Notes under the pieces: model-generated | Databases searched by the model: none | Seen by the model: the letters and a program-made list of their open reading frames with translations, nothing else | What the model was told of the DNA's origin: nothing | Made by a program: the position numbers and the translations under genes | Assembly (NCBI RefSeq): GCF_001592935.1 | Contig: NZ_LRDB01000005.1 | Span: forward strand, 1 to 64,000 | Source of the DNA: Roseivirga echinicomitans | GTDB lineage: Bacteria; Bacteroidota; Bacteroidia; Cytophagales; Cyclobacteriaceae | Direction of reading: 5' to 3' | DNA length: 64,000 nucleotides | Part shown: one piece after another, positions 58,524 through 58,858 of the stretch | Layout of the letters: each line of letters begins with the position of its first letter | How positions within the stretch are numbered: the stretch's first letter is position 1

Positions 58524-58596
58524 GCCTCCTTAGCTCAGCTGGTAGAGCAACTGACTTGTAATCAGTAGGTCATTGGTTCGATCCCGATAGGAGGCT
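58524..58596 (+). tRNA. tRNA-Thr (TGT)
   Basis: A 73-nt cloverleaf: acceptor GCCTCCT/AGGAGGC, D-arm GCTCAGCTGGTAGAGC, anticodon arm ACTGA/TCAGT with loop CTTGTAA (anticodon TGT), variable loop AGGTC, T-arm ATTGG/CCGAT with loop TTCGATC, discriminator T. No CCA is encoded. It is followed directly by a terminator and then by three partial copies of its own 3' half. Confidence 0.96.
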
Positions 58597-58599
58597 CAT

Positions 58600-58626
58600 A
58601 AAAGCTAGTCATTTTGACTAGCTTTT
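58600..58626 (+). terminator. Terminator after tRNA-Thr
   Basis: Stem AAAAGCTAGTCA/TGACTAGCTTTT with a 3-nt T loop, starting 4 nt after the tRNA. Confidence 0.8.
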
Positions 58627-58636
58627 ATTGTTTTAA

Positions 58637-58678
58637 GGCCATTGGTTCCCCCGAAGTCTCGGGGCCGATAGGAGGCTC
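58637..58678 (+). repeat. tRNA-Thr 3'-end repeat, copy 1
   Basis: 42 nt. It repeats the tRNA from the variable loop to the 3' end (GGCCATTGGTTC ... CCGATAGGAGGCTC), but the T-loop GATC is replaced by a 16-nt hairpin with stem CCCCGA/TCGGGG and loop AGTC. It has no 5' half, so it cannot be a functional tRNA. Confidence 0.85.
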
Positions 58679-58680
58679 TG

Positions 58681-58709
58681 AAGAGTCACAGAAATGTGAC
58701 TCTTTTTTT
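58681..58709 (+). terminator. Terminator after repeat copy 1
   Basis: Stem AAGAGTCACA/TGTGACTCTT with loop GAAA and a T run, starting 3 nt after the copy. Confidence 0.8.
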
Positions 58710-58727
58710 ATGCCCGTAGCTGTATAC

Positions 58728-58769
58728 GGTCATTGGTTCCTCCGAGGCTTCGGAGCCGATAGGAGGCTC
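58728..58769 (+). repeat. tRNA-Thr 3'-end repeat, copy 2
   Basis: 42 nt with the same layout as copy 1. The inserted hairpin is CTCCGA/TCGGAG with loop GGCT. It differs from copy 1 by a compensatory base-pair change in the stem and by its loop. Confidence 0.85.
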
Positions 58770-58778
58770 TTTTAAATT

Positions 58779-58807
58779 AACCAGTTACGAAAGTAACTGG
58801 TTTTTTT
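58779..58807 (+). terminator. Terminator after repeat copy 2
   Basis: Stem AACCAGTTAC/GTAACTGGTT with loop GAAA and a T run, the same architecture as the previous one with different stem bases. Confidence 0.8.
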
Positions 58808-58816
58808 ATGCCCTAA

Positions 58817-58858
58817 GGTCATTGGTTCCCCAGAAGCCTCGGGGCCGATGGGAGGCTC
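58817..58858 (+). repeat. tRNA-Thr 3'-end repeat, copy 3
   Basis: 42 nt with the same layout. The inserted segment CCCAGA/TCGGGG has loop AGCC and one internal mismatch. The acceptor part reads GGGAGGC, one change from the tRNA. No clear terminator follows. Confidence 0.82.

Follow-up and report, generated by a model that had tools for sequence, protein, structure and literature searches.

What are the partial tRNA copies that follow tRNA-Thr(TGT) in Roseivirga echinicomitans, and how did they come to be stacked there? We analysed a window of 64,000 nucleotides (contig NZ_LRDB01000005.1, positions 1 to 64,000) in which the intact gene is followed by a short tandem array (Table 1). An initial annotation, made by reading the letters, had described three 42-nt copies of the tRNA-Thr 3' half with periods of 91 and 89 nt, and this layout is exact to the base. 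The replacement of the T-loop GATC by a 16-nt hairpin likewise holds in all three copies. The 14-nt arm CCGATAGGAGGCTC, allowing up to two mismatches, has four matches on the + strand of the 64-kb window, and these are tRNA-Thr and the three copies; chance is ruled out as the source of this recurrence.

Table 1. Features of the tRNA-Thr array in the window
Feature	Position	Strand	Details
Intact tRNA-Thr(TGT), parent of the repeats	58524-58597	+	ARAGORN; RF00005, 69.6 bits
Terminator stem immediately 3' of tRNA-Thr (unit 1)	58598-58628	+	fold z -4.56
Displaced tRNA-Thr 3' half, copy 1	58637-58678	+	42 nt; orthologue in G001 (L004)
Palindrome CCCCGAAGTCTCGGGG replacing T-loop GATC, copy 1	58649-58664	+	6/6 pairs
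GAAA-loop terminator (unit 2), after copy 1	58681-58709	+	fold z -6.36
Displaced tRNA-Thr 3' half, copy 2	58728-58769	+	42 nt; decayed orthologue in G001
Palindrome CTCCGAGGCTTCGGAG replacing T-loop GATC, copy 2	58740-58755	+	6/6 pairs
GAAA-loop terminator (unit 3), after copy 2	58779-58808	+	fold z -6.30
Displaced tRNA-Thr 3' half, copy 3; marks the right end of the array	58817-58858	+	42 nt
Imperfect palindrome CCCAGAAGCCTCGGGG, copy 3	58829-58844	+	5/6 pairs

The array spacers are 39-49 nt long and consist for the most part of terminator. Within the window, the array units contain neither an ORF nor the trace of one, and no integrase gene lies between the duplicated tRNA-Thr ends. Both GAAA-loop terminators fold strongly, with none of 200 shuffles reaching their scores; the terminator of tRNA-Thr itself also folds better than its shuffles. 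Folded in isolation, the three copies are unremarkable relative to shuffles (z -0.82, -0.89, and +0.28), and no Rfam family matches them. The terminator tail TTGTTTTA was considered as a mark of the element and was dropped because it also occurs in G005, a genome that has no copy.

Orthologues and dispersed palindromes

A protein neighbouring the array is 95% identical to its counterparts in R. ehrenbergii KMM 6017 and R. seohaensis SW-152. A sister species, R. ehrenbergii (G001, L004), shares copies 1 and 2, and R. seohaensis (G004, L008) retains one decayed copy, which is read as the orthologue of copy 2; across the 19 genomes of the genus, presence is patchy. In the R. ehrenbergii locus, a short inverted-repeat insertion interrupts the terminator that separates copy 1 from copy 2. 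At the tRNA-Thr locus of another genome of the genus (G012, L014), tandem repeats of ~120 bp lie upstream of the gene, each comprising the tRNA 5' part and a hairpin, in a mirror image of the array in the window.

Copies of the array are thus found in close genomes, but the covariation among them is weak. The hairpins decay in the orthologues, with 5/6 pairs left in copy 2 of R. ehrenbergii and 4/6 in R. seohaensis. Across six aligned copies from three species, four of 36 cells are broken and a single pair differs on both sides, a score that 34 of 500 shuffles reach, so covariation beyond chance was not found in the orthologues.

The initial annotation had taken a pair that differs on both sides of the hairpin between copies 1 and 2 for a compensatory change and hence for a sign of selection on structure. 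The difference (C-G to T-A at pair 2) was confirmed and is the sole two-sided one between the hairpins. A search of this genome (G000) with CYCCGAAGNYTCGGRG, tolerating one mismatch, gives 27 forward matches versus one for the reversed control; the pattern is abundant (15-27 forward matches) in seven of the 19 genomes of the genus. With zero mismatches, it occurs at 23 places in G000, of which seven have the form CCCC..GGGG, 16 the form CTCC..GGAG, and none a mixed form. Since the hairpins reproduce a palindrome found scattered over the genome, the supposed compensatory pair is a difference between two stock variants. These variants, together with the uncompensated loss of pairs in the orthologues, rule out covariation as a signature of selection here. 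A caution for similar loci is that paired differences among palindrome copies can imitate RNA covariation.

Different species carry different palindromes; one of them, TCCCGATAGCTATCGGGA, is dispersed in 11 of the 19 genomes of the genus and was found neither in G000 nor in controls. One palindrome half, TCCCGATAG, equals the 3' strand of the tRNA-Thr T-arm (L217; tRNA-Thr T-arm in G006), and tRNA-Thr may accordingly be the source of the palindrome family. The general rule that palindromes form by fold-back of the local tRNA was dropped, because the TCCCGATAG palindrome is also found at other tRNAs and dispersed elsewhere.

RAYT genes commonly adjoin REPs, and genes with the Y1_Tnp domain are present in 14 of the 19 genomes of the genus (seven genes in G000). 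They occur in all seven palindrome-rich genomes and also in the poor genomes G003, G010, G012, G015, and G016, so that across the 19 genomes their presence shows no clear match to palindrome counts. At one locus of G000 (L186, G000:C51:34500-41000), a variant of the array palindrome, at 36311, has a Y1_Tnp gene (35765-36106) at a distance of ~200 bp.

GIY-YIG ORFs and scarred halves at tRNA genes

A pattern combining GGTTC with a palindrome has 17 matches in six of the 19 genomes of the genus and none in controls. These matches are displaced 3' halves of tRNA-Ala-GGC, Val-TAC, Val-GAC, and Pro-TGG, with the T-loop replaced each time; in the Ala copy, the anticodon arm is replaced by a palindrome too. 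In all, scarred displaced copies were found at Ala-GGC, Val-TAC, Val-GAC, Pro, Gly (in G005), Met (in G017), Asn, Asp, and Leu. A mirror form exists at Arg and Ser, where an ORF lies upstream of the tRNA and a displaced 5' half is scarred in or near the D-loop. The T-loop is unaltered in some displaced copies, namely Ala in G013 and G011 and Met in G012, and these have a palindrome elsewhere. Within the genus, the place of the palindrome is isotype-specific (the T-loop at Thr and Val-TAC, the anticodon arm at Ala), and because it is placed by isotype, it may mark a junction or cut site. At the level of the class, its place is more variable; the Val-TAC copies of L318 and L325 are scarred in the anticodon arm.

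In many genomes, the intact tRNA and the scarred half are separated by an ORF of 75-110 residues encoding a GIY-YIG nuclease, and at Val-TAC and Ala-GGC this small ORF makes up the interval between the two. PF01541 was detected in all four ORFs tested against Pfam (Val, Thr, Ala, and Leu examples). The full form is present at tRNA-Thr itself in G006, twice in tandem: tRNA-Thr is followed by a terminator, a GIY-YIG ORF (PF01541, 50.9 bits), and a scarred copy, and this series of three parts is then repeated once. The displaced tRNA-Thr of G006 starts at the anticodon arm, and its T-loop GATC is replaced by TCCCGATGGCTATCGGGA. A tRNA-Thr unit was also found in another genus of the same family (L288). 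Units measure either ~90 bp, when they have no ORF, or ~310-460 bp, when the GIY-YIG ORF is the only one they contain. Units that lack an ORF, like those of the window, were also seen for Pro in G001, Gly in G005, Val-GAC in G000, and Ala in G001 and G004. Val-TAC of G017 has four tandem units of ~412 bp each.

Two further loci are of note. Ten tandem GIY-YIG units with a 457-bp period follow tRNA-Met at L307 (G126:C9:904800-911600). At L196 (G003), a tRNA-Leu 3' copy is followed by a GIY-YIG unit and the locus has no intact tRNA call; the unit was probably split from its tRNA by a larger insertion.

For a census beyond the genus, a profile was built from 12 of the ORFs. It matches 164 of 247 class genomes at E <= 1e-8 and 170 of 296 phylum genomes at E <= 1e-10. 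A tRNA accompanies the ORF in 46 of 50 class loci (27 of 30 picked by the tool and 19 of 20 chosen by hand); Rfam found nothing in the four class loci without a tRNA call (L283, L291, L305, and L316). In an independent, tool-picked phylum set, a tRNA is within range at 25 of 28 loci. When displaced halves are counted once per locus, with the genus and class sets pooled, 46 of 52 have a palindrome with a stem of at least 6, versus 13 of the 52 intact partner tRNAs; one of the positives (L280) resembles a native tRNA-Phe arm, and of the 97 candidate segments, 31 yielded no convincing half. The corresponding controls give a mean of 5.5 for shuffled sequences (maximum 14) and of 10.3 for random windows of the same loci (maximum 20), and several of the six misses hold imperfect palindromes. 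The phylum set behaves alike, with a palindrome in 15 of 17 displaced halves versus five of 17 partners (shuffled mean 1.9, maximum 4).

In a tree of 92 GIY-YIG ORFs, 33 of them near a tRNA, nuclease clades track tRNA isotype as judged from the sequences. The isotype labels require 15 changes (the minimum being 12) versus a mean of 32.6 when shuffled, and none of 200 shuffles is as low; near-identical copies favour a low score, the Met labels account for three changes instead of forming one clade, and the alignment has few columns and leaves 37 forks open. On the tRNA side of the tree, nine rows have no nearby tRNA call: two lie by partial copies of tRNA (Leu or Met) and seven at tmRNA. In all seven members of the tmRNA clade (L223, L231, L233, L234, L236, L266, and L268), RF00023 lies 150-573 nt upstream of the ORF on the same strand. 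A displaced tmRNA half was not established in this clade; several of its loci have decayed repeats containing GGTGGAG between tmRNA and ORF.

Origin of the array and relation to known systems

The array is probably a stack of three relics, each without its ORF, of a homing-like GIY-YIG element specific for tRNA-Thr. A complete unit on the 3' side of a tRNA would comprise a terminator, a small GIY-YIG ORF, and a displaced 3' half interrupted by a palindrome in the T-loop or, at other isotypes, in the anticodon arm. From this architecture we infer cutting, homing, a function of the palindrome, and an order of events. The nuclease would cut the cognate tRNA gene inside a loop on a chromosome free of the element, and repair off the element-bearing chromosome would bring in the element with a fresh 3' half. 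The tRNA would remain functional, the old 3' half would be displaced downstream, and the palindrome at the junction would ruin the target in the displaced copy. Repeated attack on the intact tRNA would stack further units. In the window, the ORFs would then have been lost, leaving 3' half, terminator, and palindrome. Because three independent losses of the ORF are unparsimonious, the units without an ORF may instead have multiplied as such. Of the three origins that the initial annotation had offered, two fit: a repeat family that started from the end of the tRNA, and what is left of an insertion there. The inserted type is here identified as the GIY-YIG unit, which in another Roseivirga genome still bears the ORF at tRNA-Thr.

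We consider it unlikely that neutral events produced the array, namely an unequal duplication of the tRNA 3' half and its terminator, followed by the landing in the useless copy of a dispersed, REP-like palindrome, for whose movement Y1/RAYT transposases might be responsible; the array would then require no nuclease. The dispersal of the palindrome (27 forward matches versus one), the Y1_Tnp genes of G000 and of all seven palindrome-rich genomes, the decay of orthologous hairpins, and the lack of an ORF in the units of the window are all consistent with such a course. Against it, palindromes sit at isotype-specific sites over species and families and occur in almost all displaced halves (46 of 52 and 15 of 17), GIY-YIG ORFs occupy the same gap at tRNA-Thr of G006, and Y1_Tnp genes are found in palindrome-poor genomes as well. 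Several points weigh against the GIY-YIG element as origin: the window has no ORF or trace of one, some displaced copies have an unaltered T-loop, the palindrome could have arrived separately, since it is already dispersed in the genome, and self-immunity is puzzling, since the rebuilt tRNA keeps the putative target. The palindrome may still matter, because hairpins are retained at such places across the phylum.

Functional T-arm hairpin RNAs processed from tRNA-Thr read-through, another origin put forward initially and one with a parallel in the rtT repeats of E. coli tyrT, are very improbable. In their favour, each copy has a strong terminator before or after it, and many displaced halves keep a hairpin despite differing in sequence; against them, the isolated copies fold no better than shuffles, pairs are lost in orthologues, Rfam has no match, and a strong terminator lies ahead of copy 1. 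The least probable account is a tyrosine-recombinase element (a phage or ICE) that integrated at the tRNA 3' end and was since deleted. tRNA 3' ends are classic attachment sites, and a larger insertion may part the GIY-YIG unit from its tRNA at L196, but the units are of ~90 bp or ~310-460 bp with a GIY-YIG ORF alone, attachment-site copies do not, to our knowledge, usually acquire a palindrome, and the ORF list of the window, inspected by eye, shows no integrase-like neighbour.

Several known systems resemble parts of the GIY-YIG unit. The rtT repeats of E. coli tyrT (~178 bp, including 19 bp of the tRNA) are likewise tandem, lie 3' of a tRNA gene, and contain its 3' end; we know of no T-loop palindrome or nuclease ORF in them. 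Mobile endonuclease ORFs in fungal mtDNA (Allomyces atp6; Glomus atp6, atp9, cox2, and nad3) duplicate a gene 3' end: the ORF lies in or after the host gene, which receives a new 3' part while the native part stays downstream (PMC3630166). The replaced 3' end and the native end left beyond the ORF are shared features; the atp6 mobile ORF is a LAGLIDADG, whereas the present units have bacterial tRNA or tmRNA hosts, a tiny GIY-YIG domain, and a palindrome in the displaced part, and the term 'hairpin' is absent from the text of PMC3630166. SegB of T-even phages, a free-standing GIY-YIG endonuclease of tRNA regions whose cleavage and recombination give tandem repeats (PMC13096335), shares the tie to tRNA genes and the repeats; it resides in a phage genome, unlike the units at single chromosomal tRNA genes, and the available excerpts of that paper mention neither a displaced, palindrome-bearing tRNA half nor isotype-specific clades. 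REP/RAYT palindromes are GTAG- and CGTC-tagged, CGTC repeats being reported from Bacteroidetes, and the excerpts of PMC3733652 do not mention tRNA loops as sites; the likeness lies in a short palindrome dispersed in many copies. Among the matches listed in the open-licence literature, no description of bacterial GIY-YIG ORFs with displaced tRNA halves was found, nor do the portions retrieved from the GIY-YIG superfamily paper (PMC1564403, under tRNA and Bacteroidetes terms) and from the REP survey (PMC12306157) contain anything on such elements. The type looks little described.

An odd tRNA repeat is thus the entry point to a widespread system: small GIY-YIG ORFs are present in the majority of Bacteroidota genomes sampled (170 of 296), and the best-scoring ones mostly adjoin a tRNA gene. 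We tentatively propose, as one possible generalization, that these are selfish elements found throughout the phylum, with each one devoted to a single tRNA isotype or to tmRNA. A minimal GIY-YIG nuclease would home into the tRNA gene, rebuild the tRNA, and mark the displaced half with a palindrome that would be a working part of the element, either destroying or hiding the target or serving as a recombination or repair junction, and the 90-bp units without an ORF would have multiplied in trans. If homing is true, these elements would act as minimal gene drives whose targets are essential tRNA genes, keeping the gene alive via the half they supply; they would account for many partial tRNA copies and offer a test of how a rebuilt target escapes its nuclease.
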